From an uncultured Verrucomicrobia subdivision 3 bacterium (GTDB taxonomy: Bacteria; Verrucomicrobiota; Verrucomicrobiia; Limisphaerales; UBA11358), in NCBI GenBank assembly GCA_903917705.1, contig CAIXBQ010000012.1:24921-88920 (forward strand): a DNA stretch of 64,000 nucleotides, given 5' to 3'. Below are positions 1 through 19,803 of this stretch, in pieces (position 1 is the stretch's first letter; the number at the start of each line of letters is the position of its first letter). Made by a program: the position numbers and the translations under genes. Under the pieces are notes generated by a model, which saw only the letters and a list, made by a program, of their open reading frames with translations, did not search any database and was not told where the DNA came from.

Positions 1-1188
1 GTAGTCCGACTGCCACGGCGCCGGCAGCCGGTCGTTCCAGATGCCCTGCAAATTTGCCGGCAATCGCGCCGGGCGGCGGGAGCTACTCATCAGCAGATAC
101 CGGCCGAATTGAAAATGCAAGGCCACCAAGCCGGGATCGTTGGCACCCTTCCGGATGGCGGCGAGCCGCGCATCGGTGGGCAGCTTTTCCAGCGCCGGGT
201 CGGCCGTGCCAAGTTGCACGGAGACGCGATTGAACATGGCGCGGTGTTCGACCAGATGCGCTTCGAGCAATTGCGCCCATGATTTTTTTGCCGCCTTGGC
301 AAGAATCGCGTCGCAGATTTTCGCCGGCACAATCGCGCGGTCAAAGTTCATTTTGGCCAGGTTGTAATCTGTCGCGGCGGTGAAGAGGAGGACCGCCTCG
401 GTCGCGCCTTTGATATGCATCTGGTTTTCCTCGGCCAGCACGGCCCCTCGATCCACTTGCGCGAGCAAGCGGCCGGCAAATTTCATGTGCGCGCCGCCGG
501 GGCCGTGACCGCCGGGTTTTCCAGCGTGACCGCCGTCCTGGCCCTCCACATCCATGACCTGCCCATCGAGTTGCAGCCGCCCGCCAGCCGCAGCCTTCAC
601 CACGGCGTCAAGTTCGCGCGTGAGGCTCGCCTTGAAGTCGAGCGTGCCCGGCTGATCCGTTGTGACCCGGACCACCAGCACATCATCCGGCGCGGAAACC
701 AAGACCTCGCGCGTGATCGTGGCGCTGCCGCTGCGATAACTGACGCGGGCCAGTCCGTCGGCCAGTTGCAGTTCGCGCCGGTAAGCCGAGTTGGTTTCCG
801 CGCCGCCAAAATCCAGCCAGAGGTCACCCAGCGGCTGGTAGGAGCGGAAGCAGGTGGGCGTGGCGGTGAGATGGGCCAGTCCGTAGGCGTGGGCCTCGGC
901 ATTTTTTCCGGCGAAAATCAGCCGGCGCACTTCGGCGAGATGATTTGAAAAGTTTTCGGGATACGCGTCAACGGGACAACCGCCCCAAAGACTTTCTTCA
1001 TTGAGCTGCATACGCTCTTTGGCACCGCCGCCAAAAACCATCGCGCCCAAGCGCCCGTTGCCCAGCGGCAGCGCCTCGTTCCAATTCGCGGCGGGCTGGT
1101 TGAACCAGATCCGCGGCGGCTCTTGAGCAGCGGCAGTCAAGGTCAGGCACACCCACCCGACTGCAAAAAGAAAACGGCTCTTTTCCAT
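1..1188 (-). CDS. GH95-type alpha-L-fucosidase, partial (runs off left window edge)
   Basis: Minus-strand frame from ATG at 1188 reads MEKSRFLFAVGWVCLTLTAAAQEPPRIWFNQPAANWNEALPLGNGRLGAMVFGGGAKERMQLNEESLWGG; signal peptide followed by the GH95 PLGNGRLGAMVFGG...LNEESLWGG signature; open to position 1, so absent from the ORF track. Confidence 0.85.
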   Translation of the reverse strand, partial: MEKSRFLFAVGWVCLTLTAAAQEPPRIWFNQPAANWNEALPLGNGRLGAMVFGGGAKERMQLNEESLWGGCPVDAYPENFSNHLAEVRRLIFAGKNAEAHAYGLAHLTATPTCFRSYQPLGDLWLDFGGAETNSAYRRELQLADGLARVSYRSGSATITREVLVSAPDDVLVVRVTTDQPGTLDFKASLTRELDAVVKAAAGGRLQLDGQVMDVEGQDGGHAGKPGGHGPGGAHMKFAGRLLAQVDRGAVLAEENQMHIKGATEAVLLFTAATDYNLAKMNFDRAIVPAKICDAILAKAAKKSWAQLLEAHLVEHRAMFNRVSVQLGTADPALEKLPTDARLAAIRKGANDPGLVALHFQFGRYLLMSSSRRPARLPANLQGIWNDRLPAPWQSDY

Positions 1189-1218
1189 GAAGAATGAATT
1201 CACCGCCCCCCTCGTTCG

Positions 1219-2703
1219 TTACTCATCGCTGGCATTCTTGTCTTTGGCGGCGGCATCCCGTTTGGGCGTGACGTAAGGCCCAGTGCCTTCGCCGGCCCAC
1301 GCGAGATCGGCCTTCATCGCGGGGTGGTCGGCATAGGGGTCTTTGAATTTTTTTGCATAGTCCGTCAAGGCTCGTGCCAGTTCGCGCATTGGCTCGCGCG
1401 ACCGGGGTTCGGAGAAAATGTTTTTCATCTCGAACGGGTCCTGTTCCAGATCGAACAAGTCCGGATCATGGTCGGGATAGACGACGAACTTGAATCGGGT
1501 CGACACAGCCATGAGCCAGTGGCCATAGGCGTTGCGGGAAAACACCACGTTCTTCCAATCCGCCGGCGCTTGGCCGCTGAGAAATAGCGCGGCGCAGTCA
1601 CGACCCTCGTCGTGTTCGTCGCGTGGCAGACCGAGCAGACTTAAAATAGTTGGCTTGAAGTCCACGGTGTCGAGCGCGTCGTGGAGAACGGTTCCGGGGC
1701 TGATTTTCCCCGGATAATCGATGATGAACGGAATGCGCGCGGAGGCCTCGTAGGGATAGCCTTTATTGATGAGGCTGTGTTCGCCGGCCATCTCGCCGTG
1801 GTCGGACGTGAAAATGACGATGGTGTTGTCCAGCACGCCGGCGGTTTTCAGCGCGTCGAGGATTTTGCCGACGTTGTCGTCAATGCACTTCACCATGCCG
1901 AAGTAGCGGGGCATGTTTTTCATGATCCCCTTGCCATTCGCCGAGCTGGGCAGGTGGAAATTGTAATTTGTGAACATCGTGTCATAAGGCGGCCGCACGG
2001 TGTTGGGATCGTGCGGGTCGGGAATGGCGAGCATGAAACAAAAGGGTTCATGCTGATGGGCCTGGATGAACGCCACCGCTTTGTCGGCCAGAAAATCAGT
2101 GGTGTAGGACTTCGCATCCGCCCCGGCGACGGCATAGGTCGGCGCACCTTTCGGGTTGCGGGCCTTGACCGCCGGGCCATTGGTGGTGTCTTCGAGCTGC
2201 TTCAAATGGCCACGGTTGAACATGTAACGGTTGTCGGTAAAACCCAAATGGCGGGCAGGCGTCCAGCCGGGCCGGGCGGGGCCATCCACGTGCAGCTTGC
2301 CGGCGTAGCCGGTCGCATAGCCGTTGCGGCGGAGGACCTCGGCAAACGTCAACACGTCATCGCGCAGAGCCATGTCGTTGGCGGGGGCGCCGGTGTTCTG
2401 TGGGTAACAACCGGTGAGAAAGGAGGCACGCGACGGCGTGCATACCGGCGAGGCGGCATAGAACCGATCGCAGATTACGCCGCGCCGAGCCAGCGAATCA
2501 ACGTGCGGCGTCTCAACCGCAATGCCGTCGCCCCAGACGAACGCCTCCTCCTTTGACAGCAGTGCCCGGTAACAGCCGAGGGTGCGGAAGTTTTGCTCGT
2601 CGGTGTGGATGATGAGCAGGTTGGGTTTGGCCGCCCAGGCTGCACCAGTCACGGCCAGCAACCCCGCACCGACGGCCATCAACCGCGAAACGTTTGATTG
2701 CAT
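1219..2703 (-). CDS. Sulfatase (S1 family, formylglycine-dependent)
   Basis: PNLLIIHTDEQNFRTLGCYR N-terminus, CTPSRASFLTG formylglycine motif (codons at 2428-2442), TSDHGEMAGEH; N-terminal signal peptide. Confidence 0.92.
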   Translation of the reverse strand: MQSNVSRLMAVGAGLLAVTGAAWAAKPNLLIIHTDEQNFRTLGCYRALLSKEEAFVWGDGIAVETPHVDSLARRGVICDRFYAASPVCTPSRASFLTGCYPQNTGAPANDMALRDDVLTFAEVLRRNGYATGYAGKLHVDGPARPGWTPARHLGFTDNRYMFNRGHLKQLEDTTNGPAVKARNPKGAPTYAVAGADAKSYTTDFLADKAVAFIQAHQHEPFCFMLAIPDPHDPNTVRPPYDTMFTNYNFHLPSSANGKGIMKNMPRYFGMVKCIDDNVGKILDALKTAGVLDNTIVIFTSDHGEMAGEHSLINKGYPYEASARIPFIIDYPGKISPGTVLHDALDTVDFKPTILSLLGLPRDEHDEGRDCAALFLSGQAPADWKNVVFSRNAYGHWLMAVSTRFKFVVYPDHDPDLFDLEQDPFEMKNIFSEPRSREPMRELARALTDYAKKFKDPYADHPAMKADLAWAGEGTGPYVTPKRDAAAKDKNASDE

Positions 2704-2751: not shown

Positions 2752-5700
2752 TTACTGAATCTTACGCGCGAAGGCCGCGCCGGAAACGATGCCCCGGAGC
2801 GCGCTGACCGGAATGCAGTTCCGGATGGTCATCTGAAAATTTTCCTGCACGCCCTGCTCCTCGTCGTAATAAACCGACTGCGTGTTGTCCACCACGCCGA
2901 TGACGGCGCCGGTCTCGTCGCACACCGGCGCGCCGCTGGAACCTTTGGCAAAATCCGCCGTGATGCTCATGAAACGAACCAACCCCTTGCGGCCTTTCTG
3001 CTGGGTCTGACGCGAGACAATGCCGGTGGAGGCCGCAAAGAGATGCTGGCTGGGATTGCTGACGATCACCACGGGAGTTCCGGCGGGCGCATCCGCCCGG
3101 GCGAGCGGGACGGGCGTGTAGCCATCACCACCCACCTGTAACACCACGAGGTCCTCGACCGGGTCGCAGGCCAGAATGTCTCGCACGGCACAAATGTGTC
3201 CGTCCCGGGTGAGCACCGACAGGCCAAGCCCATTGGTGCGGCTGCTGCCGAGCACATGAAAGCTGGTGACGAACGCGCCCGATTTGGTGATGAAAAAACC
3301 GCTCGCAGTGCTCATGCTCACCTTTTCCCCCGTGCTGGCTTGACGGAAGCAAACAACGAGACCAACAGAAGGCTCAAGGCAGGCAACGACACCGGCGGTG
3401 TCCAGCTTGCGGGACGACGGCGCGGGCAGTTTCAAACCGCACGACTTGGCATCCAATCGGTCGCCCCAATTGGCAAGGATGCCGGGCTGCTTCAGAAGTT
3501 TGCGGCCTTCGATTTCCAGAAACTGCATGGACGCCGCATCATTGATCGGCTCGCCCAGCCGGGGCGGGGCCGGCGGATTCAGTCCCCGCACCATCACGGC
3601 TGAGGTGCGATTAGTGGCTCGAACCGAAGAATCCGGCCGGGGTAAAGTTGACGCCGGCGATTTGGCTTTTCTATATGTTTCAAGATCGGTCTGGAGTCGT
3701 TGCCGGATTGTTTTGTCAGTGTCGGCGGGCGATTCGCTGATTGCCTTGGTCTGAAGTTCAACGGCCATTTCATTGTCACCTTGAAGCATTTTCACGCGCG
3801 CCAGGGTCAAGGTGAAACTATGGCCGGTTGGCCCGCCCTGCGCATACCCGTCCTGCGCAAGTTTGGCCGCGAGGGCGAGGGCGGGACCTTTCACGTTCGG
3901 GACGTGGGCGAGTTTATCCGCGATGGTCAATTGCACAATGAGTTCATGCGGATTGGACGCCATCACGTCATTGGAAAACTTGACGGCGCCGTCGAAGTCT
4001 TGCCGGGCGATGAACAGGTCCAAACGCGAAAGCTGATACATCAGCCGGATGGTCGCCGGTTCGAAGTTTTCCGTCGCCTTGTCGATCTTGGCCAGCGTGG
4101 CCTCGGCCGCTTCCCATTGCGCGGCGGCGAGCTGGCGCGAAAAACCAACCTGCAGTGAACGCAACTGGCCGGCAACGGTGTTGGCCGACTGCTTTTCCTC
4201 ACGGGCCGCCGCTTGGGCCGCCTTTTGCAGGTCAAACTTGCCGGCCAGGACATCTTCCACCAGAGCCGGTGTCAAATTCATGGGATGCCCAATCCAGACA
4301 ATCCGGCCCTGCTGGTTCACGATGAAGGCGGAGGGAATTCCATTCTGCCCCGAGGCCGTCATCCAGGTGTCGGCCATCGCCCCCTTGCCGCCACCGGTCT
4401 TGTCATCCAGCGCCACGCGGTAGGACATTTTGTCGCCCATCCGCTTTACAAATGGCCCCGGCAGCGCATCATCCTGCTCCCAGCAATCCTGCCCGATTAT
4501 GACCAGATTCTTATCCTTGAATTGCTGATACAGTTCGTTGAGGTGCGGGATCGAGGCCCGGCACGGGCCGCACCAGGTCGCCCAGAACTCCACGATGTAA
4601 ACCCGGTTGCTGGCAAACTCCGTGACCGGCTCGCCTTGAATCCATTTGCCGCACGCCAGCTTCGGGGCCGGGTCGCCAACCTTGAGCCGGGAGCTGCCCG
4701 CGGACTGCGGTTCTGGAGCGGCGGTTGGTGGTGAAACCGTTTCGCCGGCGGCCGGGTCGGCGTCTTTGCTGGCAAACGTCTTGCCGGTGACGGTGGTGAG
4801 CGCCTTTTCGATGGCGGGTGCCAGCGCTTGGCCGCGAATCGTGTCGTCCGCGAGTATGGCACCGGTGTTGCCGTCCACCAGGATCATGTGCGGAATGGCC
4901 CGGATGCCATAGAGTTTAGCCACTTCCGCCTCCCAGAACTTGCCGTCGCAGACCTGCGGCCAGGTCATGTTTTTCCTTTTGGTGAAGTCGGCGAGCAGCG
5001 GCACACCTGCTTCGCGGTCCAGGCTGATGCCGAGGATTTCCAGGCCCTGCTCGTGATATTTTTCGTAAGCCTTCGCCACATTGGGAACTTCCGCAATGCA
5101 CGGGCCGCACCACTGGGCCCAGAAATCCAGCAGCACGACCTTGCCCTTGTAATCGCCGGGAAACTTCACCGTCTTGCCGTCGGTGCGCCGGGCGGTGAAC
5201 TCGGGCGCCTTCCGGCCGGGGCTCAGGTTGGGGCCGGCCGACGCCGGCTTCGCAACGGCCACGATTTGTAAGGTGCCATCGGGAGTCAGATTGGTCATGG
5301 CCCACCATTGGTCGTCCACCTCGAACGGCCGGAATACGCTGAAGCTGGTGCCTTTGCCGAGGGACCGGCCGGTGTTCGTTACGTCCAGCCAGAGCAAAGG
5401 CGTGGTCATGAGACTTCCGCCGAGGTGGAAATCGCCCGCACCGCTCCCATCCTCCAGCACGGCCGGGATGACTTTGCCGCCAAGCTTGACTTCCCCCGCC
5501 ATGCCAAAATCGCTGTAATGATACAGCTTGGGCGGCAATGCGCTGCCGCCCCAGGTTTCAGGCCCGTAAAAATTGACCTGCCCGCGTCTCGGCCCGGAGG
5601 CGAAGGGAATCACCACGGTGGCGCGGCCGCTCCACGAAGTACTATCGCCGCCGTCCTGGCCCACATAAATTCCATTGGTCCAAGTGCAGGGTGGATCGTC

Positions 5701-6063
5701 GGTGAAATCACCGTTGGCATTGCCATCCACGAACAGGCGCTGCGTCTGGTTGTCGGCAACATCAAGGATGACGCCGATGGTGACGGCGGCATTGGACGGA
5801 CCCATTTCAAATGCTCCGTAAAGCGGTGCGTGCAGGCCAGCCGGTGCCTGCTTGAAACCGGCCGGCACCTGGGCGGAAAGGCCGATGGCGTGAGGCCGCT
5901 GTCCGCTGACAATTTGATGGATGCCTGATTCCTGCCATTTGAAGTGGTAGGTTTCCGGCTCTTGCGCCCAAAGCGGCAAGCCGAGCACCAAGACGAGTGC
6001 GCATAAGCCGGATCCCGCGCGCGAGGTGCTGAAAAACCCGGCCGGTAGTGGATTTGATTTCAT
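2752..6063 (-). CDS. Secreted multidomain protein: two TlpA-like thioredoxin domains (WAQWCGPC, WATWCGPC), helical repeat region, C-terminal trypsin-like (S1) serine protease domain
   Basis: Signal peptide ...GLPLWAQ; two WCGPC redox motifs; C-terminal SGFFITKSGAFVTSFHVLG / DPVEDLVVLQVGG / GSSGAPVCDETGAVIGVVD matching His/Asp/Ser triad regions. Confidence 0.85.
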   Translation of the reverse strand: MKSNPLPAGFFSTSRAGSGLCALVLVLGLPLWAQEPETYHFKWQESGIHQIVSGQRPHAIGLSAQVPAGFKQAPAGLHAPLYGAFEMGPSNAAVTIGVILDVADNQTQRLFVDGNANGDFTDDPPCTWTNGIYVGQDGGDSTSWSGRATVVIPFASGPRRGQVNFYGPETWGGSALPPKLYHYSDFGMAGEVKLGGKVIPAVLEDGSGAGDFHLGGSLMTTPLLWLDVTNTGRSLGKGTSFSVFRPFEVDDQWWAMTNLTPDGTLQIVAVAKPASAGPNLSPGRKAPEFTARRTDGKTVKFPGDYKGKVVLLDFWAQWCGPCIAEVPNVAKAYEKYHEQGLEILGISLDREAGVPLLADFTKRKNMTWPQVCDGKFWEAEVAKLYGIRAIPHMILVDGNTGAILADDTIRGQALAPAIEKALTTVTGKTFASKDADPAAGETVSPPTAAPEPQSAGSSRLKVGDPAPKLACGKWIQGEPVTEFASNRVYIVEFWATWCGPCRASIPHLNELYQQFKDKNLVIIGQDCWEQDDALPGPFVKRMGDKMSYRVALDDKTGGGKGAMADTWMTASGQNGIPSAFIVNQQGRIVWIGHPMNLTPALVEDVLAGKFDLQKAAQAAAREEKQSANTVAGQLRSLQVGFSRQLAAAQWEAAEATLAKIDKATENFEPATIRLMYQLSRLDLFIARQDFDGAVKFSNDVMASNPHELIVQLTIADKLAHVPNVKGPALALAAKLAQDGYAQGGPTGHSFTLTLARVKMLQGDNEMAVELQTKAISESPADTDKTIRQRLQTDLETYRKAKSPASTLPRPDSSVRATNRTSAVMVRGLNPPAPPRLGEPINDAASMQFLEIEGRKLLKQPGILANWGDRLDAKSCGLKLPAPSSRKLDTAGVVACLEPSVGLVVCFRQASTGEKVSMSTASGFFITKSGAFVTSFHVLGSSRTNGLGLSVLTRDGHICAVRDILACDPVEDLVVLQVGGDGYTPVPLARADAPAGTPVVIVSNPSQHLFAASTGIVSRQTQQKGRKGLVRFMSITADFAKGSSGAPVCDETGAVIGVVDNTQSVYYDEEQGVQENFQMTIRNCIPVSALRGIVSGAAFARKIQ

Positions 6064-6083
6064 GTTATGGAAGCCCCTTCAAT

Positions 6084-7271
6084 TCACTTGGACGCTGACG
6101 CTGGCGGCAGCTTGCCCGCTTGGTAAGCCTCAAGCACGGCTTGGTATTGTCGACGGGTGGCTTCGGGCGTTTTGTCCGATAACTCGGCCAGCATCTTGGT
6201 TTGATATTCCACCGCCTTCGCCTGGTCTCCCTGGATCATCTTCACTCGGGCCAGAAGCGAAAGGAAAATGTTGCCAATCTGGCCACCGCTCGCATACCCG
6301 GTTTGTGCGGCTTTTTCGGCCAGATCCAGCGCCGGCCCTTTCAGCTCCGGAAGGTTGGCAAACTCGGCGGCGATGGTTAGCTGGACCGAGATATCACGAG
6401 GGCTGGATTCCAGCGCGGCGGTGCCGATTTTGACGGCTCCGTCCAAATCCTTCCTGGCCAGCAAGAGGCGCATGCGCATCAGGCTCGGTCGCGCATTGGT
6501 GCCCGGTGACTGGCTGTGCGCCAGACTGTCCAATTTGATCAGCGTGGCCTCGGCTTCGTCCCACTGGGAAGCGGAGAGCTGGCGGTTGAAGGCAACCTGG
6601 AGCGACCGGACTTGGCTGGCCAAAGCCTGATTTGCAACCTGCTTCTCGCGCTCAACCGCCTGAATTTTAGCCGCCTTTTGCAGGTCGTGCTTACCCGCCA
6701 GAATATCTTCAAGCAGACCCGGATCCATTTTCATGGGATGGCCCATCCAGGCGATTTTGCCTTGCCGATCCACGATGAAGGCGGAAGGAATTCCGTTCTG
6801 CCCGGAGGCCGCCATCCAGGTCCCGGCCATCGCACCCCGCCCGCCGCCGGTCTTGTCATCCAGCGCGACACGATAGGTCATCTTTTCGCCCATTTTCTTC
6901 ACGAACGGTTCCGGCAGCGCATCATCCCGCTCCCAGCAATCCTGGCCTATGACGATCACATCCTTGTCCTTGAATTGCTGATACAATTCATTGAGATGCG
7001 GAATCGACGCCTTGCACGGACCGCACCAGGTCGCCCAGAACTCCACGATGTAAACCTTGTTGGTCGCGAACTCCGTGACCGGGTCGCCCTGAATCCACCT
7101 GCCCATCGCTAGCTTCGGGGCGGGATCGCCGACGCTGAGGAGCGGGCGGGCCGGGTGGTTCGTTTCTGCGGCGGCGGTCGGATCGGTGACCTGGTCAGCC
7201 GCCTTGGCCGAGGTTAAGGCGGCGACCATTGCCAGCAACGTCATGGTGAGTTTGGATGTTTTTGAGTGCAT
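6084..7271 (-). CDS. TlpA-like thioredoxin domain protein with helical/TPR-like C-terminus
   Basis: VEFWATWCGPCKASIPHLNELYQQF; signal peptide; collinear with the middle of the 1103-aa ORF. Confidence 0.85.
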   Translation of the reverse strand: MHSKTSKLTMTLLAMVAALTSAKAADQVTDPTAAAETNHPARPLLSVGDPAPKLAMGRWIQGDPVTEFATNKVYIVEFWATWCGPCKASIPHLNELYQQFKDKDVIVIGQDCWERDDALPEPFVKKMGEKMTYRVALDDKTGGGRGAMAGTWMAASGQNGIPSAFIVDRQGKIAWMGHPMKMDPGLLEDILAGKHDLQKAAKIQAVEREKQVANQALASQVRSLQVAFNRQLSASQWDEAEATLIKLDSLAHSQSPGTNARPSLMRMRLLLARKDLDGAVKIGTAALESSPRDISVQLTIAAEFANLPELKGPALDLAEKAAQTGYASGGQIGNIFLSLLARVKMIQGDQAKAVEYQTKMLAELSDKTPEATRRQYQAVLEAYQAGKLPPASASK

Positions 7272-7289
7272 AGAGCTGTTGGTATCAGG

Positions 7290-8573
7290 TTATTTCTTTT
7301 TTCCAGCCAGCGCCTTTTCGATGGCGGGCGCGAGGGTTTCGCCGCGAATTTTGTCAGCGAGGATCAAGCCCGTGTCGCCGTCCACCAGCACCATGTGCGG
7401 GATGGATTGGATACCGTAGAGTTTGGCCACTGCTGCGTCCCAGAATTTGCCGTCGTAAACCTGCGGCCAGGGCATGCTCTTTTTTTTGGTGAAATCGCCC
7501 AGCTTCGTTTCCCATTCCGCTTTGTCGAGGCTCACACCCAGCACTTCCAGTCCGCGGTCGTGGAAGGTCCCGTAGTTCCTGACCACGTTGGGCAATTCGG
7601 CCACGCACGGACCGCACCAGGTCGCCCAGAAATCCAATAGCACCACCTTGCCGGCATAGTCACCGGGAAACTTCACCGTCTTTCCGCCAAGCAATTTGCC
7701 GGTGAACGCCGGCGCTTTTTGGCCCGGACTCAAATCCACCGCTGGCGCGGCGGCCTTTGGCACCGGCTGGCTGGACGCCACGATCTGAAAGTCGCCGCCC
7801 AGGGTGAGATTGGTGACACACCACCATTTGCCGTTCACTTCAAACGGCCGCTGGGCCGGGGCGGTGTAGCCCAGCCGGTGGGTTCGTGGATTCGTGATAC
7901 CCAGCCACAAACTGGGGTTCGCCATCGGATCCTGATCCAGCCGGAAATGGCCCAGATTGCCTGAATCCTCCAAAATCGCCGGGATGATCTGCCCGTCGAT
8001 TTTCACATCGCCCGCCAATCCGTAGTCGGTATAAAACATGAGTGCCGGGGGGGCGGGTTTGTGCCCGCCCGTTTGGCCGATATAGAATTTCAATTTCCCG
8101 GGGCGCAGACCACCGGCAAAAGGGATGCTCACCATGGCGTCGGCTTTAAACTCAACCTTTTCAGCCCCATCGCGGGTGATATAGGTCTTGTTCGTGCAGA
8201 CGCACGGCGGATCGTCGGTGAAATCGCCGTTGGCGTTGCTGTCCACGAATAGACGGGTGAGCTGACCGTCCGGCGCATCGGCAATGATGAGGAATGTGGC
8301 CGGGGCATTCGGCGGGCCAAGCTTGATGGCGCCATAGAGGGGGGCGCGCAAACCTTCCGGGGCGCGCTTCAGTCCTTCCGGCGCCCCGGAATGAATCATC
8401 ACGGCGGCAGGCCGTTCGCTGGTATCCTGCTCGTGAACGCCGGAGGATTGCCACGCGAGGTGGATCGTGTCCTGGGCCCAGAGCGGCAAACCGAGGAGCA
8501 GGGTGAGAGCGATCAAGCCGGCACCCGCGAGGACAGAGTTAGCGGCAGGCATTGAAGTTTGATTGGATTTCAT
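7290..8573 (-). CDS. TlpA-like thioredoxin domain protein with N-terminal beta-rich domain
   Basis: VVLLDFWATWCGPCVAELPNVV; FVDSNANGDFTDDP acidic loop; signal peptide; collinear with N-terminus of the 1103-aa ORF. Confidence 0.85.
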   Translation of the reverse strand: MKSNQTSMPAANSVLAGAGLIALTLLLGLPLWAQDTIHLAWQSSGVHEQDTSERPAAVMIHSGAPEGLKRAPEGLRAPLYGAIKLGPPNAPATFLIIADAPDGQLTRLFVDSNANGDFTDDPPCVCTNKTYITRDGAEKVEFKADAMVSIPFAGGLRPGKLKFYIGQTGGHKPAPPALMFYTDYGLAGDVKIDGQIIPAILEDSGNLGHFRLDQDPMANPSLWLGITNPRTHRLGYTAPAQRPFEVNGKWWCVTNLTLGGDFQIVASSQPVPKAAAPAVDLSPGQKAPAFTGKLLGGKTVKFPGDYAGKVVLLDFWATWCGPCVAELPNVVRNYGTFHDRGLEVLGVSLDKAEWETKLGDFTKKKSMPWPQVYDGKFWDAAVAKLYGIQSIPHMVLVDGDTGLILADKIRGETLAPAIEKALAGKKK

Positions 8574-8591: not shown

Positions 8592-10592
8592 TTATTGGCC
8601 GGTGCTTTTGCCCACCGGTAAGGACTCACGGCTTAATCTGGCCGTCGAAGGGGCGAGCAAGACTTTCCCCCAGGTGTTGGTTCCCCCGGCCGGCTCCAGA
8701 CTCAATCGCAGGCGATAGCCACCGCCCGACGGCTTGTCCGGCAGCCGGAGGATATAGATCTCATTGGTGGGACGGGTTCCGGTAAAACCCTCATGCCGGT
8801 CGCCGGCCACCACCTGGCGGTCTTGCAGCAGCTCGGCCGCGTGCAAATAAACCCCGTGGCTGCCCCGGGCATAAACCGGCATTGCCAGCAATTCGCCGGC
8901 GGCCGCCAGTTGCGGCGGCACATCGAATTCCAGATTGGTCGCGCCGGCGGCGAAACTGCCCGGATCCCATTCGCCGACCTTGTCCGCCAGGTCGGATGGA
9001 TGGTAATGAATCCCGAGCCGGGCCAGCCGGGGGAGCTGGGCCCGCGCCCGGCGCAGATAATCAGGCCACTCGCCGCGATTGTCCGGCGACCAGCCGCGTT
9101 CGGCAATCGCCAGCAGGCGCGGGTATAATTGCCGGTCCACCCGCTCCGGCTCGCGATCGATGTGGGACCAGAAATTCGCCTGCAAACCCAGCACATGCCG
9201 CGCCGCCCCGGGCGGAATGCCGGCCACCGGATCAAAGGAAAAAACGCGGGCGGAATCGGTCGTTGACTGGGCATAGTCGAAGTAACAATAACCCGTGGGG
9301 CTCATCACGACCTCGTGCCCCGCCCGGGCGGCGGCGGTTCCGCCCTTCACCCCGCGCCAGCTCATGACCGTCGCGTTCGGCGCCAGGCCCCCCTGCAGTA
9401 TCTCATCCCAGCCGATGAGTCGTTTGCCGTGTTTTTCCACCAGTTTTTCCACGCGCCGGATGAAGTAGGATTGCAATTCCTCCTCGTCCTTCAGCCCCTC
9501 CGCTTTCATCCTGGCCTGACATTTGGCGCAGGCGTGCCAGGCCGTCTTCGGCACCTCATCCCCGCCGATATGGATATACGACCCGGGAAATATGTCCGCG
9601 ACCTCGGCCAGGACCTGGTCGATGAATTCAAAGGTGGCGTCGTTGCCGGCGCAGAACACATTGACGTTGACGCTGGGGCCCTTGAAAAAGGGAAATATTT
9701 CAAACGGTCCGCCTGTGCAGGAAAGCTCCGGATAACCCGCCAGCGCGTCCAGACTGTGGCCGGGCATCTCGATCTCCGGGACGATGGTGATATGGCGGGC
9801 GGCGGCGTAGTTGACGAGCTCCCGCATCTGCGCCTGCGTGTAGAAACCCTGATGCGACGGCGGTTCGCCGTATCGGGCGGGAAAGAACGCGCCTTTGCGG
9901 GTCAGTTCCGGAAACGCCTTGATTTCCAGCCGCCAGCCCTGATCGTCGGTCAAATGCAGGTGCAGGACATTCAATTTGTAAACGGCCATCCGGTCGATCG
10001 TCTGGTGGAGATACGCCACCGACTGGAAAGTGCGGCTGCAATCAAGCATCAGCCCGCGCCATTGGAAGCGCGGCTGGTCGGTGATGTTCACGCCGGGAAT
10101 TTGCCATTTCACACCGGGAAAAACCTTGGAAGAAAAGCTTTCGGGAGGCAGCAATTGCAGCAGGGTCTGGCCGCCATAAAACACGCCGGCGGCTGCACCG
10201 GCGCGAATGGTGATTCGCTCCGGCGTCACCACCAATGTGTATCCCTCCGGAGAAACATTGGTGTCCTGCTCTTTCACCAAGCGGATGATCCCCGCCGGGG
10301 CTTTGCCGGAGCTGCCGGTGGCCAAAGTCAGTCCGGTGGCCCGCGCCAGCTGTTCTTTAAGCAGCCCCGCTTCCGGCGCAAACGCGCTGTCCGCCTCGAT
10401 GCGACAGCCCGGCGTAAGCAGGAAGGAGCCGGAGGTCACCTGCTGCCGGACCGGTTGCGGCACCACGGACAGTTCCCCGGCAGAAAGGAACTCCGGACTG
10501 AAGAGGCAGACCACGGCCGCCAATATCACCCAACCGGATCCCAGGTTGGTCGGGGTTGCCGGAGCATGCTTTTCTAGCCGGATATTATTCAT
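8592..10592 (-). CDS. GH20 beta-N-acetylhexosaminidase
   Basis: HLHLTDDQGWRLEIKAFPELT, IHIGGDEVPKTAWHACAKCQARM (catalytic D-E), signal peptide; start at 10592 preferred (GGAG upstream); ORF track extends to 10652. Confidence 0.92.
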   Translation of the reverse strand: MNNIRLEKHAPATPTNLGSGWVILAAVVCLFSPEFLSAGELSVVPQPVRQQVTSGSFLLTPGCRIEADSAFAPEAGLLKEQLARATGLTLATGSSGKAPAGIIRLVKEQDTNVSPEGYTLVVTPERITIRAGAAAGVFYGGQTLLQLLPPESFSSKVFPGVKWQIPGVNITDQPRFQWRGLMLDCSRTFQSVAYLHQTIDRMAVYKLNVLHLHLTDDQGWRLEIKAFPELTRKGAFFPARYGEPPSHQGFYTQAQMRELVNYAAARHITIVPEIEMPGHSLDALAGYPELSCTGGPFEIFPFFKGPSVNVNVFCAGNDATFEFIDQVLAEVADIFPGSYIHIGGDEVPKTAWHACAKCQARMKAEGLKDEEELQSYFIRRVEKLVEKHGKRLIGWDEILQGGLAPNATVMSWRGVKGGTAAARAGHEVVMSPTGYCYFDYAQSTTDSARVFSFDPVAGIPPGAARHVLGLQANFWSHIDREPERVDRQLYPRLLAIAERGWSPDNRGEWPDYLRRARAQLPRLARLGIHYHPSDLADKVGEWDPGSFAAGATNLEFDVPPQLAAAGELLAMPVYARGSHGVYLHAAELLQDRQVVAGDRHEGFTGTRPTNEIYILRLPDKPSGGGYRLRLSLEPAGGTNTWGKVLLAPSTARLSRESLPVGKSTGQ

Positions 10593-10687
10593 CGGAAAAT
10601 CTCCTGCCCGGATCATTTCCAGCGTCGGCAACATGGTGGTGGGTTCGGTCATCTTGGAATTTGATAATGCTCATCGGCGCCTGTCCA

Positions 10688-12244
10688 CTAATTACGGGTG
10701 TGGCCGCTTTGGATGGCCTCCTCGAGCCGGGCGGCGAGACGCTTGACGATCTCCGGCTGGGCTTCGGCCAAATCCTTGCTTTCCGCCAGGTCGTTTTCCA
10801 AATCATACAGCTCGTGCCGGCCATCCGTCCGGGCGATCAACTTCCATTGGCCCACCCGGATCTGCTTGGCGCAGGCAGGATGGCTGGGCACGCCGCTCTG
10901 GGTGATCACATGGTCGCGCACCGGCTGGCGGGGGTCGCGAAATACCGGCAGGAGATTCACGCTGTCCGGCGCGGCGTTGGTGGGCAACGACACCCCGGCG
11001 ATGGCAGCCGCCGTGGCCAGGCAATCCACCAGGGCCACCACCTGGTCGGAAACGGCCGCCGGCGGAATCACCCCCGGCCAGCGGGCCATGAACGGAACCC
11101 GGGTGCCGCCCTCGTAGGGTGTGACTTTGAAGCCGCGCAAGGGGCCGTTCACCCGATGCCCGAATTCCTTTTCCTGCCAGGCGTATTCACCCCCCGCACC
11201 GTTGTCGCTGGCCAGAATGACCAGCGTATCATCGGCCAGCCCGAGTTCTTGCAGCGTGTCCAGCACCTGGCCGACGCACCAGTCAAACTGCTGCACCGTG
11301 TCGCCGCGCTTGCCGCACTGGCTGGTGCCGTTGAAGCGCGGATTGGGGGCCAGCGGGGCATGCACATCGTGGGTGGCAAAGTAGAGGAAGAAGGGTTTGC
11401 TCCGGTTCGTCCGGATGAACGCCAGGGCCTTGCTGGTAAGGGTGTCCGCCAGTGAATCGTCCTGCCAGAGCGCCGCACGCCCCCCGGTCATGAAGCCGAT
11501 GCGGCAGATGCCGTTGATGATGGTGCCGGCGCGGATCTCATCCTCGCCCCGGTGCGTGGGACGCACCAGCTCAAGATGCGTTTTCGCCGTCGGACTGTCG
11601 CCCAGGTTGGCTTTGAAACTCAGGTGGATCGGGTCGTTGGTATCCAGATTGACCACCCGGTGGTTCTCGACATAGACGCACGGGACGCGGTCGCCGGTGG
11701 CGGGAACCAGGAACGAATAATCGAAGCCGAGCGTGCGCGGGCCGGCATCGATTTCGTGATTATAATCCGTCGGCCCCCCGCTGCCCAAGCCAAGATGCCA
11801 CTTGCCGACCACCGCCGTCTGGTATCCCGCCTGCTTAAGGACCGAGGCGATGGTGGGCATATTGGTGGAAATGCACAGCGGGGCGTCGCCCGGTAGTATA
11901 TGGGTGCCCGCCCGGCGCCACGCGTATTGGCCGGTCACCAAGGCATAGCGCGTGGGGGTGCACGTGGCCCCGGTGGCGTAACCGGAGGTGAACCGCACGC
12001 CCTGGGAAGCAATCTGGTCCACGTGCGGCGTTTTGATTTTGGTTGCACCGTAGCAGCCAAAATCGCCGTAGCCGAAGTCGTCGCCCAAGATGATGACGAT
12101 ATTCGGCTTCGCTTTTTCGGCGGCCCCGACCGCGGATTCACCGCCCCCCAGCCAAACCAGCATCGCCGCCAGCCCCGTCGTGAGGTATCCAAAACCGGCC
12201 ATCATCGGCCGGGCCTTTGCCAAGAATAAGATTGATAATTTCAT
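10688..12244 (-). CDS. Arylsulfatase (S1 family)
   Basis: PNIVIILGDDFGYGDFGCYGATKIKTPHVD, CTPTRYALVTGQ (11948-11962), VVGKWHLG, LASDNGAGGEY. Confidence 0.92.
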   Translation of the reverse strand: MKLSILFLAKARPMMAGFGYLTTGLAAMLVWLGGGESAVGAAEKAKPNIVIILGDDFGYGDFGCYGATKIKTPHVDQIASQGVRFTSGYATGATCTPTRYALVTGQYAWRRAGTHILPGDAPLCISTNMPTIASVLKQAGYQTAVVGKWHLGLGSGGPTDYNHEIDAGPRTLGFDYSFLVPATGDRVPCVYVENHRVVNLDTNDPIHLSFKANLGDSPTAKTHLELVRPTHRGEDEIRAGTIINGICRIGFMTGGRAALWQDDSLADTLTSKALAFIRTNRSKPFFLYFATHDVHAPLAPNPRFNGTSQCGKRGDTVQQFDWCVGQVLDTLQELGLADDTLVILASDNGAGGEYAWQEKEFGHRVNGPLRGFKVTPYEGGTRVPFMARWPGVIPPAAVSDQVVALVDCLATAAAIAGVSLPTNAAPDSVNLLPVFRDPRQPVRDHVITQSGVPSHPACAKQIRVGQWKLIARTDGRHELYDLENDLAESKDLAEAQPEIVKRLAARLEEAIQSGHTRN

Positions 12245-12412: not shown

Positions 12413-15400
12413 TTACGGCGCGGTGATGAGATAGAACTGCTGTGATTGATTCGTTGCGGTTGAATCTGTGAACGTCACCGGACCGGCCCCAAACAGGCCG
12501 GTGGCCAACACCGACCAGCTTGCCCGCGGCGTGGTCAGGTTCGTGCTGGCGATGACCTTGTAGGTCTCGCCCGCCGGACCACTGAAGGTCAACTGGAAGC
12601 CGCCGCCGCCCAGGGTGAGGCTGCCGCCCACAGTCGGCGCCACCAGCGCGTTCACGGTCAAGGTCCCCAGCGCCGACGTGCCGCCAACTCCGTTGGTGAC
12701 CGCCACGGTATAGTTCCCGGACTGGGTTGTGGCCAGGTTGGTCAGCGTCAGCGTGGCGTTCGTGCCGCCGGCGATGACATTGGTGTGGTTGTCATACCAC
12801 TGATAAGTGAACGGCGCGGTGCCGGCCGTGACATTCGCCGTGAACAACACCGGGCTCATCGCAAACACATTCGTGCCGGCCGGGGTGACATTCACCACGG
12901 GCGGCACGCCCACAGAGGTGACGGCGAGTTTCACAGCGGAGCCGGTGTTGAGCAGGTTGGCCGTCACGCCCGACGGCAGCGTGCCCAGCTGAAGGCCGGC
13001 GAAGCCGTTGGTGCCGCCAATCGAACCCGTGTAAGTGATCAGCGTATTCGTGCCGACCACAAAGCTGCCGTCAAGGAGGTTGACGATGTTGGTGCCGTTC
13101 ACGTTGAGCGTCATAGCCGCAATCGTGCCACCGGCCGCAATCTTAAAGCTACTGTAAGTCACCACATTGGAGGTGTTGCCCAAATTCAAGGTGGGGACGG
13201 TCAGGGTGTTGGCATAATTCGCGTCGCCGCCCTGGATGATGCCGCCAGCCTGAAGGGTGACGGTTCCGCCCACCATGCCTGATCCACCAAAGGTTGCATT
13301 GGGGCCCACGGTCACAGGGGAATTCGCCGTGGAGCCATTGACCAGCAATGTACCGGCGTTCACCGTGGTGCCGCTGGTGTAGCCGTTGATGCCGGCGAGG
13401 GTCCAGGTGCCGATGCCGTCTTTGGTCAGGCCAAAGGCTGCGGCGTTGGTGCCGTTCGTGACCGAGCCGCTGATATAGCCGTTGCCAATGCCGCCCAGAT
13501 CCACCTGCCGGGATGTGTTGGTCGAGCTAATGATTCCCGAAAGAATCAGCAAACCGGCATCCGACTGGAGAAGGATCCCATTGCCGCCGGTCGACGGTAC
13601 CTTCAAGTCGCTGAGAATCGTGTTCGTGCCGGAAACATTCTCGATTTGGGGCAACCCTCCGCCCCCAAACGTGTTCTCAGATTTGAAGGTAGTGAAGGTG
13701 TTTGTAATGGTGTTCACCCCGGTCATCGCCAGTTGCAGTGTGCCGCTGCCCGTGCCTGAGCTGTTGACCGTGATCGAACCGGTTCCCATCGCGCCCGGAC
13801 TCGTGACCTGCACGACACCGCCGTTGTTCTGGATAATCAGGCCCCCCGCGAAAGTGCTGTTGGTAGCGGTCAGCACCGTTGTGCCGGCATATTGCTTGTA
13901 AAGAGTCGCACCCCCGCTGATCGCGCCTGTGATCACGCACGTCATGTTGGTGGGCGGGTTAAGCTGCAACAGCAGGCCGGAACCGGAGCTTACATTGCCC
14001 GGCAGCGAGCCGTTGTAGCTATTGCCGTCGCCAACGCACAAAGTACCGCTATTGAAATACGTTCCGCCGGAATAGGAGTTGTTCGTGCTCAACAAGTAAA
14101 CGGTGGAAGATCCGTTAATCGTGAGACCGCCCGTCCCGCTGATCTGGCCTTTGTAGGAAGGACCAGATGAACCACCGCCCAAGGTTAGCATATTGCCATT
14201 ATTATTGATGTTACCAGCGACCGTCCACGAGACGGCGTTGGAAATCGTGCTGGGAGCCGTCAGGGTGATATTTCCCTGCTGAACTGAACTGGCGGCACTG
14301 TAGCTGCCCATCACGCCGCCGTTCAGGGTCACGGGCAGGGTGTTGGTCATGACGCCATACAGGTAGAGCGCAGCACCCGGTTCCACGGTGAACGAGCCGC
14401 TCCCGGTCGTCGCGCCGCGCGCCATGGCCAGTGTGCCCTGGCCGACGTCAATCAGGCCGTTGTTTGCCAAAGTGCCATCCACTTCCAGATAAACAAAATT
14501 ACCGTTGGTTTTGGTCAGCGTTGCGGTGCTGGCGACGGACACCGTCGCGCTCGGAGCAGAAACGGCACGCACATCAAATTCATAGACGCCGCCGATGTAG
14601 CTGTTCGCATTCACCGTCAGGTTGCTCAATGCACTCCCCTGTGCCGCGCCGTTGTTGACCAGCCAGCCGCCGTTCAAGATGACCTTGGCGGAGCCGGTAA
14701 GGTTGACCCCGTTGATATCCAGCGTGCCACCGCTGTTGACAGTCGCGCCCGCGCCGCCAGCCGCGCCGAGGGCGGTGGTGCTGCCCGCCAGCACGATCCC
14801 GTTGTTGATGGTGGTGGGCCCGGTGTAGGCGTTCGCCCCGGAGAGCGTGACCGCACCGGCTCCCGACTGGACGACGCTGCCGGTGCCGCTGATGTTGTTG
14901 GCAACGGTTGGGGCGTCGGGACGGTTGAGGGTTAACTGGCTGTTGTTGACGATGTCGCCCGTGACACTGCCGCTGGAGGACACGCCATCGCCAATCTGCA
15001 ACGCGCCGCCCTGCACCGTCGCGCCCGATACGAACGCCGGGTCCGCCGTAACAATCAGCGTACCGTTGCTGACCACCGTGCCGCCGGAATAGGTGTTGGC
15101 CGTGGCCAGCGTCAGGTCGCCCGTGCCGCTCTTGACCAGGCTCGTCGAGCCGGCAATGCTGCCGCCGCCGCTGAAGGTGTAATTCTGCGACGCATTCACG
15201 ATGATGCTGTTGGGCAGCAGGGGGGCCGTCAGGTTGATGGCGGGGGTGTTCGAGCCACTGTCATTGAACAGCACATAGTCGCCGCTGTAAAAAGTGTCGG
15301 GGCTGCCGGAGTTCGACCAGTTTATGGTGGTCGCCAGATCCCAGACGTTGCCGCTCCCGTCGCCCTGCCAGGTTAGCGTTCCAGGAACGCCACCGGTGCC

Positions 15401-18400
15401 GACCGTGATCGTAATGTTGGTGGTTCCGACATTGAGCGTCACATTGCGATAATCCTTGTCCAGCGCGAAACTGCCGGTGTTGTTAAACGCGTTGGGGCTG
15501 CTGACCAGCGTGTAGGTGCCGGGAGCCGTGAAGCCTGAGAGGAAGGTCAGCGAAATGTAGGTCGGTGCGCCGGCGTTATTCAGTGTTCCCGCCACATAGA
15601 GTTGACTGTTGGGGCTGGAGATGTTTGCTCCCAGACCCAAGGTGAGCGTCCCGCCGTTGAGCGTCAGGTCGTTGTTGAGCGTGAGTGTGCCCGCCGCCCC
15701 GGCGCTCCCGGGGGTGATGAATGAGCCCGTTGACATGTTAACGCTGCCGTTGACTACGCCCGCGCCACCCACCGTCTGGCCGGAACTCAAGGTATAACCG
15801 CCTCCCAGCGGGGAAACATCAAACACCGCATTGGTGGACACCGAGACCAGACGATTCGCCAGCGAACCGCTTAATGACAGGGTGCCGTTGTTGACATAGA
15901 CTGGGCCGGTGGCAGTGTTGGCCCCAGCCAGCACCAACATGCCCAGACCGGTCATGGTCAGGCTCCCGCTGCCGGCGACGATAGTTGATGAGTCAAATGT
16001 GTTCGTCGTGCCGATGTCAAGTTGCGCCGTGGGTGTTCCACTGATGCCCAGGTTAAAGGTCGCTCCAGACGCGGTCAGGTTGGTGCCGGGATAATTTTGA
16101 ATCGTGCCGCCGTTCCAATTAATGGTGCGCGTCGCCGTGCCGGCTCCAGGCTGAATCGTCTGGGCCTGCAGCGTCGCGCCATTGAACATGTTCACGATGG
16201 CGCTGACCGTTCCGGTGAAATTCTGCTGATCGCCCATCGTCAGCGCCCCCACCAGCACGGTCCCGCCATTGATATTCAAAACGCCCGTCTCGGAGCCGCC
16301 GGAAGCGTCGCTTCCCAGCCGCTGGCCGAGGATGATGTTGGTGGCATCCAGCAAACCGCCGCCCATGACCAGGGTGCCGACCGAACCGATGTTGCCGCCG
16401 GAGCCAAAACCGCTCTCGCCGAGCAGGGCCGTGCCGATGTAGGCATCCAGCACCGCGACCCCGCTGACGCCGTTGACCAGGTTCAGCGTGCCGATTGCCG
16501 GTGTGTAATTGCTGTTGTCAAATGCGCCGAGATTCAGCCTGGCCCGCGACACGCCATCCGCCGCCCGTATTTTCAGCGTCGGACTGGCTAATCCGCTTAG
16601 GAAATAGACGTTTCCATAGGCCTGACTGTTGCCAATTGTGAGAGTATTGGCGTTAATAGTGTTGGCCTGGCCCATATATAGATTGCCGGCGTTTTCGCTG
16701 CTGGCAGCGGAAACATTTCTTCCCGCGAGAGCCACGCCGAAGGTGGCGGCGGTGATGGTGTTGGTTTTGGCCAGCGTGAGGGTACCGGTGGAAATGCCGC
16801 TCACGCCCGTCAAGCGACCGCCGACGGCAAAAGTCAAAGCCGGCCCGCTATACACCATCGTTTCCAACCCGGACAGGTCGAGCGTCTGCGCGTTGTTCGC
16901 GGCGGACGAGCCCAGTTGGAAGTTTTGGGCGCCCAGATTGAGCGTACCGCCGGCCCCCGCGTTGGTGGCCGTGATTCCATCTGCGAGCGTCAAGTTGCCG
17001 AGCGTCTGGCTGACGCCGGCCAGGGAAAGAATACCCGCGCTGGAAAAGTTGACCGTACCCGCCGGCAGCCGGTTGTTGCCGCCGCTCAATGCCAGCGTGC
17101 CGCCGCTGATGGTCGTGGCGCCGGTGTAATCATTGGCCGTGGCCAGGTACAGTGTTCCAGTGCCGCTTTTGGTGAGGCTGGCGCTGCCACTTACTTTGCC
17201 GGTGCCGCTGAAGGTGTAGTTATTGGTCGAGTTCACGGTCACGCTGGCCGGAGTCAGGATCGTGGTCAGATTGATCGCAGGTGCGTTGGACCCGGTGTTG
17301 TCAAAGATCACGCTATCCGACGGGTAGAAGATGGTGGAGTTGCTGCTGTAAAGCCAGTTGGCCGTGGCCGCCACGTCCCAGGCGTTGGCCGTTCCGTCGC
17401 CCTTCCACGTCAGGTTAAAGGATGAGCCGCCGGCGCCGACCACCAGCGTCAGGGTCGTACCATTGTTGACCAGCGTGACATTGCGATACGGATAAGTCGT
17501 GCGGTCCAGCGCAAACGTCCCGCCGCCGGTGATGCCCGACCCGGTGGTGATCAGGGTGTAAGCGCCCGCGCTCAGGCTGCCGCTGAGATAATTCAGCGAA
17601 ACCAGGTTGTTGCCGGTGACCGTCAATCCGCCGGCAATCACGATCTGGTCATTGCCGCTGTTGGTGGCCGAGCTCAAATCGAAGATATTCGTGCAATTGG
17701 CAAACGTGGCCGAGTTGGCGAAAGTCAGCGTTCCGGCCGCGCCCGCGCCGCCGGGAATCACCCGACCATGGGCATTGATTGAGAGATTCCCTTTGACTGC
17801 GCCGGAGCCGCTCAGCGTCTGTCCTGCGCCCAAAGAAACGCCGCCGCCGGTGACATCCAGCGTCGCGCCGGAAGCCACGCTGACCACCGGTGTGTTGGGC
17901 AGCGCGCCGTTGGCCCCCAGGATCAGCGTGCCGCTGCTGATGGTGGTGTTGCCGCTGTAATTGTTGGTGCCGTTCAAGGTCACATTCGTGGTGCCTTGTA
18001 CCGTGAGGGAATAGGCGCCGTAGATGCCGTTTGTGTCCGCCGTCGTCAGAAGGTAGGGAATTGCCTGGTTCTGGAAGGTCACATTGCACCCGGTCACGCC
18101 CGAGGCTGTGATCGTGATATTGCTGCGCAACACCGCCGTCCCGGTAATGGACTTGTCGGCAAAGAAGACATTGGTGCCTGCCGCCTTCACGGTGCCATAA
18201 TTCATCCCGCTAAAATTCGCCGAGGTGGTGTCGCCGTTCGCCCAGTTTCCGTCCGTGGTGCCGCTCCAATATCCCGTCCCGTCCCGCAGTTGGATGAGAT
18301 TCACCTGGGGAACGTGTTTGACGGAAGCCGCCGTGACCGGAGCCACCATGTTGAATGGCTGGATGGTCGCGTCGGCGGTAAAGGTCCCGATGGTATAATG

Positions 18401-18967
18401 TCCCACGCCGCCCGCCGCGTTCACCGAGTTGAACGCGAGCGAAACAGTGTTGCCGCTCCCCCCGTCGCTCACATTGTTGGTGCGCGGCTCGCTCGCCCGC
18501 GGGTCGCTGGACCAGACCTGGACCGCATACTGGCGGCCGATGATCAAATTGGTCAGCGTCACCGTCCCCGTGGTCGAAGCAGAGGCGCTGCTCGGTGGCC
18601 CATAAATCGATCCCTTGAGAAGATTGGTATAGACCGCCGGGAGCGCGGAAAAAGGCGCTGTGCTGGAGTAAAAGGCCGAAGCATTGACAGAGCCAAAGCC
18701 GGAGAAGTTGAGATAGGTGCCCACCGCGCCGCCAGTGGCGCTGGCGGCGGTGAAGGCGACGCCGTTGAGCGTGCCGGCTGTGCCAAACGTGTAAGCGGCC
18801 AACCCGGTGCCGCCGAGGCTTACGTCGCTGGCCGCCGAACAAGTGCCCGGCGCGCTGAACGTGATGGTGGCCGCCGGGGCGGACCCGCCGCCCAGCAGGA
18901 GGGTGAAAGCGAGCAACCCCGCCGCGAGGGCGGACTGCCGGTTCAGGGGATTTGCTGTTTTATTCAT
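12413..18967 (-). CDS. Giant secreted autotransporter-associated beta-strand (PATR) repeat protein with C-terminal Ig-like domain
   Basis: Many GTGTLYLATANDYTGATTISGGTLAL-type repeats; start MNKTANPLNRQSALAAGLLAFTLLLGGGSAPAA at 18967 gives a signal peptide; ORF track start 19123 overlaps the upstream pseudopilin. Confidence 0.85.
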   Translation of the reverse strand: MNKTANPLNRQSALAAGLLAFTLLLGGGSAPAATITFSAPGTCSAASDVSLGGTGLAAYTFGTAGTLNGVAFTAASATGGAVGTYLNFSGFGSVNASAFYSSTAPFSALPAVYTNLLKGSIYGPPSSASASTTGTVTLTNLIIGRQYAVQVWSSDPRASEPRTNNVSDGGSGNTVSLAFNSVNAAGGVGHYTIGTFTADATIQPFNMVAPVTAASVKHVPQVNLIQLRDGTGYWSGTTDGNWANGDTTSANFSGMNYGTVKAAGTNVFFADKSITGTAVLRSNITITASGVTGCNVTFQNQAIPYLLTTADTNGIYGAYSLTVQGTTNVTLNGTNNYSGNTTISSGTLILGANGALPNTPVVSVASGATLDVTGGGVSLGAGQTLSGSGAVKGNLSINAHGRVIPGGAGAAGTLTFANSATFANCTNIFDLSSATNSGNDQIVIAGGLTVTGNNLVSLNYLSGSLSAGAYTLITTGSGITGGGTFALDRTTYPYRNVTLVNNGTTLTLVVGAGGSSFNLTWKGDGTANAWDVAATANWLYSSNSTIFYPSDSVIFDNTGSNAPAINLTTILTPASVTVNSTNNYTFSGTGKVSGSASLTKSGTGTLYLATANDYTGATTISGGTLALSGGNNRLPAGTVNFSSAGILSLAGVSQTLGNLTLADGITATNAGAGGTLNLGAQNFQLGSSAANNAQTLDLSGLETMVYSGPALTFAVGGRLTGVSGISTGTLTLAKTNTITAATFGVALAGRNVSAASSENAGNLYMGQANTINANTLTIGNSQAYGNVYFLSGLASPTLKIRAADGVSRARLNLGAFDNSNYTPAIGTLNLVNGVSGVAVLDAYIGTALLGESGFGSGGNIGSVGTLVMGGGLLDATNIILGQRLGSDASGGSETGVLNINGGTVLVGALTMGDQQNFTGTVSAIVNMFNGATLQAQTIQPGAGTATRTINWNGGTIQNYPGTNLTASGATFNLGISGTPTAQLDIGTTNTFDSSTIVAGSGSLTMTGLGMLVLAGANTATGPVYVNNGTLSLSGSLANRLVSVSTNAVFDVSPLGGGYTLSSGQTVGGAGVVNGSVNMSTGSFITPGSAGAAGTLTLNNDLTLNGGTLTLGLGANISSPNSQLYVAGTLNNAGAPTYISLTFLSGFTAPGTYTLVSSPNAFNNTGSFALDKDYRNVTLNVGTTNITITVGTGGVPGTLTWQGDGSGNVWDLATTINWSNSGSPDTFYSGDYVLFNDSGSNTPAINLTAPLLPNSIIVNASQNYTFSGGGSIAGSTSLVKSGTGDLTLATANTYSGGTVVSNGTLIVTADPAFVSGATVQGGALQIGDGVSSSGSVTGDIVNNSQLTLNRPDAPTVANNISGTGSVVQSGAGAVTLSGANAYTGPTTINNGIVLAGSTTALGAAGGAGATVNSGGTLDINGVNLTGSAKVILNGGWLVNNGAAQGSALSNLTVNANSYIGGVYEFDVRAVSAPSATVSVASTATLTKTNGNFVYLEVDGTLANNGLIDVGQGTLAMARGATTGSGSFTVEPGAALYLYGVMTNTLPVTLNGGVMGSYSAASSVQQGNITLTAPSTISNAVSWTVAGNINNNGNMLTLGGGSSGPSYKGQISGTGGLTINGSSTVYLLSTNNSYSGGTYFNSGTLCVGDGNSYNGSLPGNVSSGSGLLLQLNPPTNMTCVITGAISGGATLYKQYAGTTVLTATNSTFAGGLIIQNNGGVVQVTSPGAMGTGSITVNSSGTGSGTLQLAMTGVNTITNTFTTFKSENTFGGGGLPQIENVSGTNTILSDLKVPSTGGNGILLQSDAGLLILSGIISSTNTSRQVDLGGIGNGYISGSVTNGTNAAAFGLTKDGIGTWTLAGINGYTSGTTVNAGTLLVNGSTANSPVTVGPNATFGGSGMVGGTVTLQAGGIIQGGDANYANTLTVPTLNLGNTSNVVTYSSFKIAAGGTIAAMTLNVNGTNIVNLLDGSFVVGTNTLITYTGSIGGTNGFAGLQLGTLPSGVTANLLNTGSAVKLAVTSVGVPPVVNVTPAGTNVFAMSPVLFTANVTAGTAPFTYQWYDNHTNVIAGGTNATLTLTNLATTQSGNYTVAVTNGVGGTSALGTLTVNALVAPTVGGSLTLGGGGFQLTFSGPAGETYKVIASTNLTTPRASWSVLATGLFGAGPVTFTDSTATNQSQQFYLITAP

Positions 18968-19026
18968 GTTGTTCGTTGGTTGGTTTATTGGTTGGCTAAC
19001 TGAAATTTGGAATATTTCGGGTTGGT

Positions 19027-19803
19027 TCATGGTTTGGCGGCCAGTCCGGCAAGGCTGGCCGTTGGGATTGTGCTGGTATCCTCCTGATAAAAATAGGCGA
19101 TGCGGGCGCCGCCGGTGTTCCATGTGTGCAGATAATACATATCCGTGAACCGGACCCAGCGCGCCGATCCGTCACAAAAGCTCTCATTCCCGCCCGCTGG
19201 AATCATGCCGCCGTTCCGGTGCTGCGGCATGTCCATGTAGGTCTCCCGCGCCGTCCCTCCCGTCGTGTCCACCCCGCCCCAACTGCCGTTGATCTTCATC
19301 ACCGTGTCCGCCGCCATGCACCAGCTGGGCTTGGACTGGCCCAATTTCACCGGACTGCACGATTTGAAGGTGCCCGCCGTATTCATCCAGGTCGAGATGC
19401 CGCCAAAATACTGGAAGCCGATGGTCCACTGGTCATAGAACGATTCGTAAACGGGCAGTTTGGGGCGGTCCGGACAGGTCCAGACGCTGGGCGTGTTGGA
19501 GACAACCGCCAGTCCCACGGTCTTGGCCACCGAGGGCGTGATCGGATCCAGGGCGATCTGCACCAGGGCCGTGCGAACGGGAATCACCAGGTCATTATTG
19601 TCGCCCGCATACACCGTCATACCCAGGGTTAGCTGCTTGAGATTGCTCAAGCAGACGGCGCGCTTGCCTTTCTCCTTGGCCTTGGCCAAAGCCGGCAACA
19701 GCATCGCGGCCAGAATCGCGATGATGGCGATGACCACCAGCAATTCGATGAGGGTGAATGCGCGGGGCGTTTTCTTTCTGGTCCAGTCAGTCGCGGTTGT
19801 CAT
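19027..19803 (-). CDS. Type II secretion/type IV pseudopilin-like protein
   Basis: [45 protein letters not shown] prepilin N-terminus; [14 protein letters not shown] near C-terminus. Confidence 0.9.

Follow-up and report, generated by a model that had tools for sequence, protein, structure and literature searches.

A fused gene joining two TlpA/ResA-type thioredoxin modules to a trypsin-like protease, beside separate genes of both module types, in a Verrucomicrobia subdivision 3 bacterium

Described systems and organization of the locus

The described systems closest to the locus are the TlpA/ResA/DsbE thioredoxin-fold proteins (AhpC-TSA, PF00578; Redoxin, PF08534) and the HtrA/Deg proteases (Trypsin_2, PF13365). 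The activity of Escherichia coli DegP is held down by a disulfide between Cys57 and Cys69 of its LA loop, the absence of this bond raises activity, and thioredoxin can reduce it, a redox mechanism described as confined to the Enterobacteriaceae (PMC4339722). Nothing relevant was found in the literature on TlpA proteins with sulfatases or on TlpA-protease fusions.

The window, meaning the whole stretch of 64,000 nucleotides that was analysed, comes from a draft genome that is 66% complete. Three of its ORFs, designated A, B and F, were confirmed exactly at the coordinates below and follow one another in this order on the minus strand. They belong to a minus-strand series consisting of two pilin-like genes, a gene for a 2236-aa PATR-repeat protein, a sulfatase, a GH20 gene, A, B, F, a further sulfatase and a GH95 gene, in which the same-strand gaps are 18 nt between GH20 and A, 18 nt between A and B, and 20 nt between B and F. 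A and B are in the same reading frame, interrupted by one TAA and an 18-nt spacer. The features are as follows.

1..1203, minus strand, GH95 gene, downstream neighbour, cut by the window edge (Pfam)
1219..2703, minus strand, sulfatase gene, downstream neighbour (Pfam)
2752..6063, minus strand, fused gene F, A-type plus B-type plus trypsin-like protease, 1103 aa, one signal peptide
2755..3645, minus strand, F trypsin-like protease without PDZ (Trypsin_2, E 2.2e-22)
3316..3339, minus strand, lost-motif site in F, residues 909-916, A-S-T-G-E-K-V-S where homologues carry C-x2-C-x3-H
3646..4263, minus strand, F B-type TPR-like helical region
4264..4707, minus strand, F B-type thioredoxin domain, 80% aa identity to B, WCGPC at 4561-4572
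4708..4773, minus strand, F linker replacing the stop codon of A and the signal peptide of B
4774..5223, minus strand, F A-type thioredoxin domain, WCGPC at 5098-5109
5224..5961, minus strand, F A-type beta-rich N-terminal domain
5962..6063, minus strand, F signal peptide, resembling that of A (MKSN...GLPLWAQ)
6084..7271, minus strand, gene B, exported protein, 395 aa (ORF)
6087-6731, minus strand, B TPR-like all-helical C-terminal half (weak TPR_19; helical in the model of the F copy, pLDDT 90)
6732-7139, minus strand, B TlpA-type thioredoxin domain, WCGPC at 7014-7025 (Redoxin, E 1.4e-13)
7197-7271, minus strand, B signal peptide, its own
7290..8573, minus strand, gene A, exported protein, 427 aa (ORF, coordinates)
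7293-7733, minus strand, A TlpA/ResA-type thioredoxin domain, WCGPC at 7605-7616 (AhpC-TSA/Redoxin, E 2.6e-20)
7734-8573, minus strand, A beta-rich N-terminal domain with an EF-hand-like D-x-N-x-N-G-D-F-T-D-D loop (AlphaFold2 model of A, pLDDT 81)
8592..10652, minus strand, GH20 beta-hexosaminidase gene, upstream neighbour (Pfam)
10688..12244, minus strand, sulfatase gene, upstream neighbour (Pfam)

An earlier sequence-only reading had described the order A, B, A-B-protease on one strand, with A and B matching successive parts of F, and both observations were borne out. Residues 1-422 of F align with A (233/418 identical, 55.7%, 8 gap columns) and residues 439-806 with B (225/367 identical, 61.3%, 3 gap columns), so that the match is collinear and nearly gap-free; A and B have the thioredoxin core alone in common (27/63). 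A search of the source genome with the A+B stretch returned F at 978 bits and E 2.6e-294, well beyond what chance would give. The A-B junction of F carries no B-type signal peptide, and WCGPC is intact in all four thioredoxin domains, one each in A and B and two in F. These domains are assigned to the TlpA/ResA-type thioredoxin fold by Pfam AhpC-TSA/Redoxin matches over cut-off together with CxxC, and they score below the NCBIfam cut-offs for ResA, TlpA and DsbE (best 130 bits, for F, against 170 for ResA). Foldseek comparison of the AlphaFold2 model matched the thioredoxin part of A to 4grf and ResA, and model comparison likewise placed the thioredoxin domain of B with TlpA/ResA and showed a helical tail. 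The beta-rich N-terminal domain of A had no Pfam match, and the 50 matches listed for it in the fold search were all thioredoxin-like or peroxiredoxin chains. Tandem B genes occur in another genome (G018; L020 336-1418 and 1429-2508), and one of them has lost the catalytic cysteines, with WGAPS for WCGPC.

The sulfatase, GH20 and GH95 genes are clustered around A, B and F (window 1-2703 and 8592-12244), and a sulfated, fucosylated glycan is their probable substrate; locus L193 (7244-11694) is listed with this cluster. The very large PATR-repeat protein is encoded at 12413-19123 of the window, and a second region resembling it lies at 21122-26587. A link of A to the PATR-repeat and pilin-like genes was considered and dropped, since nearness means little in a genome with at least 150 PATR matches (likewise at least 150 in G244). 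Across the other genomes A and B showed no consistent pattern of lying beside sulfatase genes, nor had either any consistently conserved neighbour.

The protease module and its cysteine motif

The catalytic triad of F is intact when aligned with an HtrA-type gene, comprising H936 (3256-3258), D971 (3151-3153) and S1043 (2935-2937). The C-terminal PDZ domain expected of HtrA/Deg proteins is absent from F and from the G261 and G044 proteins, and F falls below the NCBIfam HtrA cut-offs. The nearest solved structures were HtrA2 for F, and Deg5, DegS and HhoA for its relative in G261.

The C-x2-C-x3-H motif is present in every one of the 32 distinct protease homologues compared, its first cysteine lying 26-27 residues ahead of the catalytic histidine. 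F has Ala909, Gly912 and Ser916 at these positions and alone lacks the motif. In the protease tree, which has several long branches and whose topology is what assigns F to the C-x2-C-x3-H family, F is nested beside the G261 protease (100/92), and the missing motif is therefore read as a loss. Conserved Cys875 and widely conserved Cys1083 are retained. A double frameshift was rejected as the cause, since no alternative frame of F restores the motif. Alignment with DegS places the motif before the strand of the catalytic histidine, where DegP has its LA loop, and a redox or metal role for it is plausible.

Trypsin-like proteases with the invariant motif and without PDZ are encoded at loci L166-L180 and L208-L225, another example being L190 9356-10390. 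One protease of the family is fused to DUF3472 (G134, L198 9821-11785), and another runs in frame into an apparent tyrosyl-tRNA synthetase over 763 stop-free codons (G223 C91, L177/L224), which is either a true fusion or an error.

Distribution and origin of the modules

Matches to A (E up to 1e-45) were present in 16 of the 320 genomes of the order, two of them over the thioredoxin part only, and at the cut-offs used B was present in 32/320 and the protease in 16/320; outside this locus the three are almost always separate genes. With the source genome excluded, A and B were found together in 3 genomes against 1.5 expected (p 0.17), no more often than chance allows, and A and the protease in none of the order; A, B and the protease showed no co-occurrence across the order. 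A survey of the order (320 genomes), the phylum (388 genomes) and the surroundings of 80 further B loci detected no second A-B pair and no other fusion of the A-B or A-B-protease type; the order and phylum searches scored the best two candidates per genome, so that a weaker pair may have been missed. The earlier suggestion that A and B work together, for which fusions and pairs in other genomes were to be sought, thus found no support beyond the locus itself.

From gene arrangement, a trypsin-like protease is a better supported partner of A than B is. A 718-aa A-protease fusion is encoded in G052 (L189 9257-11413), and in G244 (L183) A is followed after 48 nt by an HtrA gene (Trypsin_2 plus PDZ) and then by another Trypsin_2 gene. 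Two such links compare with 0.15 expected by a rough hand estimate, which is not a test, from about 18 A genes outside the window, the two genomes having 6 (G052) and 8 (G244) Trypsin_2 matches. The A module of G052 belongs to another A subfamily than that of F, and in the trees the G052 protease is placed far from the protease of F, so the two fusions look independent. The G052 fusion retains C-x2-C-x3-H, which indicates that linkage to a thioredoxin domain is not in itself enough to render the motif unnecessary. Pairs of an HtrA gene with PDZ and a small Trypsin_2 gene are present in G244 (L183 3562-6455), G000 C74, G151 C241, G152 C33 and G153 C25, and in G244 the small protein does not align at the catalytic His and Ser.

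B and the B-type module of F are sisters, both over the whole module (100/100) and over the thioredoxin part alone (100/96). A is not sister to the A-type module of F and groups with G152/G153 of another family (100/99). Forcing the two A modules into a clade was 24-29 log units worse over four data sets/models (AU p 0.0004-0.002); the constraint was also rejected for the N-terminal domain alone (p 0.007), and the thioredoxin domain alone gave AU p 0.23. The source genome has a further A-type copy, on contig C60, whose closeness to the A-type module of F roughly equals that of A. The trees support an origin of F from a duplicate of the neighbouring B and from an A lineage other than that of the neighbouring A. 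In other genomes A and B are commonly separate genes, which supports F as a fusion of later origin over F as the ancestral gene of a fission. Tandem duplication with fusion, as first suggested, therefore stands for B and fails as one event covering both genes, a single duplication of the A-B unit being rejected for A (AU p about 0.002 or less). The A modules are more than generically TlpA-like, as A and its counterpart in F belong to one narrow family, yet the closer kin of A lie elsewhere. At four-fold sites B and its counterpart in F are identical at 39/56 in the thioredoxin part versus 28/59 in the tail (Fisher p 0.023; window 3634-4716 for F and 6084-7271 for B), which is suggestive only of gene conversion between the thioredoxin parts.

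The main rival to this twofold origin is one tandem duplication of A-B, of which one copy fused and gained the protease, followed by transfer of A to the G152/G153 lineage. A transfer out of the source lineage would yield the same tree and hide the sisterhood, and the sister relationship of the B modules, the single frame of A and B with its lone TAA, the patchy occurrence of A in the order (expected of a transferred gene) and the unusually alike signal peptides of A and F (MKSN, GLPLWAQ), a region outside the trees, would all fit. It nevertheless requires that extra transfer, runs against the rejected clade of the two A modules and has to accommodate the equally near copy on contig C60, and we regard it as a serious but rather unlikely history.

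It is more doubtful that F is a decaying or neutral product, its protease drifting and the protein without a special combined role. F has a longer protease branch than its sister (1.15 versus 0.72), three motif residues are gone, and no other genome searched has kept such a fusion; against this, the 3.3-kb frame is open over its full length, the triad and both CxxC pairs are preserved, G+C is even across the three modules, and the protease retains 52-54% identity to its G261 relative. Fission of an ancestral A-B(-protease) gene into A and B by an intervening stop codon, the other origin first proposed, is hardly credible, for although A and B lie in one frame one TAA apart, a common frame is expected by chance in 1 case in 3, in other genomes B and nearly all A genes stand apart, with N-termini that look signal-peptide-like by eye, and B would have had to regain the signal peptide that is missing at the F junction.

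Proposed function and comparison with known systems

We infer, tentatively and with slightly less than even confidence, that the fused F acts as an exported quality-control enzyme, combining redox and protease functions, for the sulfatase and glycosidase genes around it. Its two thioredoxin domains would handle client cysteines in the cell envelope, by reduction or isomerisation, its TPR-like region may help to hold clients, and its protease would remove those beyond rescue. Judging from gene position, exported sulfatases and glycosidases of the same cluster are the likely clients. As F has lost the cysteine loop kept by its relatives, that loop, a putative redox switch or metal site, probably no longer governs its proteolytic activity, which would instead depend on the attached domains or be constitutive. 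A and B would stay as separate redox partners beside F. In favour of this role are the intact CxxC sites and triad, the two further ties of A to trypsin-like proteases, the absence of the motif from F alone and the tight same-strand spacing with sulfatases on both sides. Against it stand the motif kept by the G052 fusion, the retention of Cys875 and Cys1083 in F, the lack of co-occurrence of A, B and the protease across the order, the inconsistent placement of A and B relative to sulfatases in other genomes, and the draft state of the source genome. A broader version, in which C-x2-C-x3-H is the redox switch of an undescribed envelope protease family and this switch moved into the thioredoxin domains of F, is a long shot; it would make A-type oxidoreductases natural partners of the family, which would account for repeated fusion.

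If the quality-control role is correct, the locus is a natural experiment in which disulfide handling and proteolysis are joined within a single exported protein and the unfused counterparts lie alongside for comparison. The loss of a family-wide cysteine motif once, in the one copy that is joined to two thioredoxin domains, was unexpected and is testable, and would allow redox or metal control to be tested directly in HtrA-like proteases from lineages other than the Enterobacteriaceae. The locus also illustrates that genes in a collinear A, B, A-B order do not have to stem from one duplication.

A, B and F belong to known families. Like the TlpA/ResA/DsbE proteins, A, B and both F domains have a thioredoxin fold with WCGPC and are exported; unlike them, A adds an unassigned beta-rich domain, B adds a TPR-like tail, and F joins modules of the two types to each other and to a protease. 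F shares the catalytic triad and trypsin-like core of HtrA/Deg proteases and differs in having no PDZ domain and in coming from a family with C-x2-C-x3-H before the catalytic histidine, which F itself has lost. DegP resembles this family as an envelope protease with cysteines ahead of the catalytic histidine, but its cysteines are 12 apart in a long loop, and oxidoreductases act on it in trans, whereas the thioredoxin domains of F are attached to the protease.
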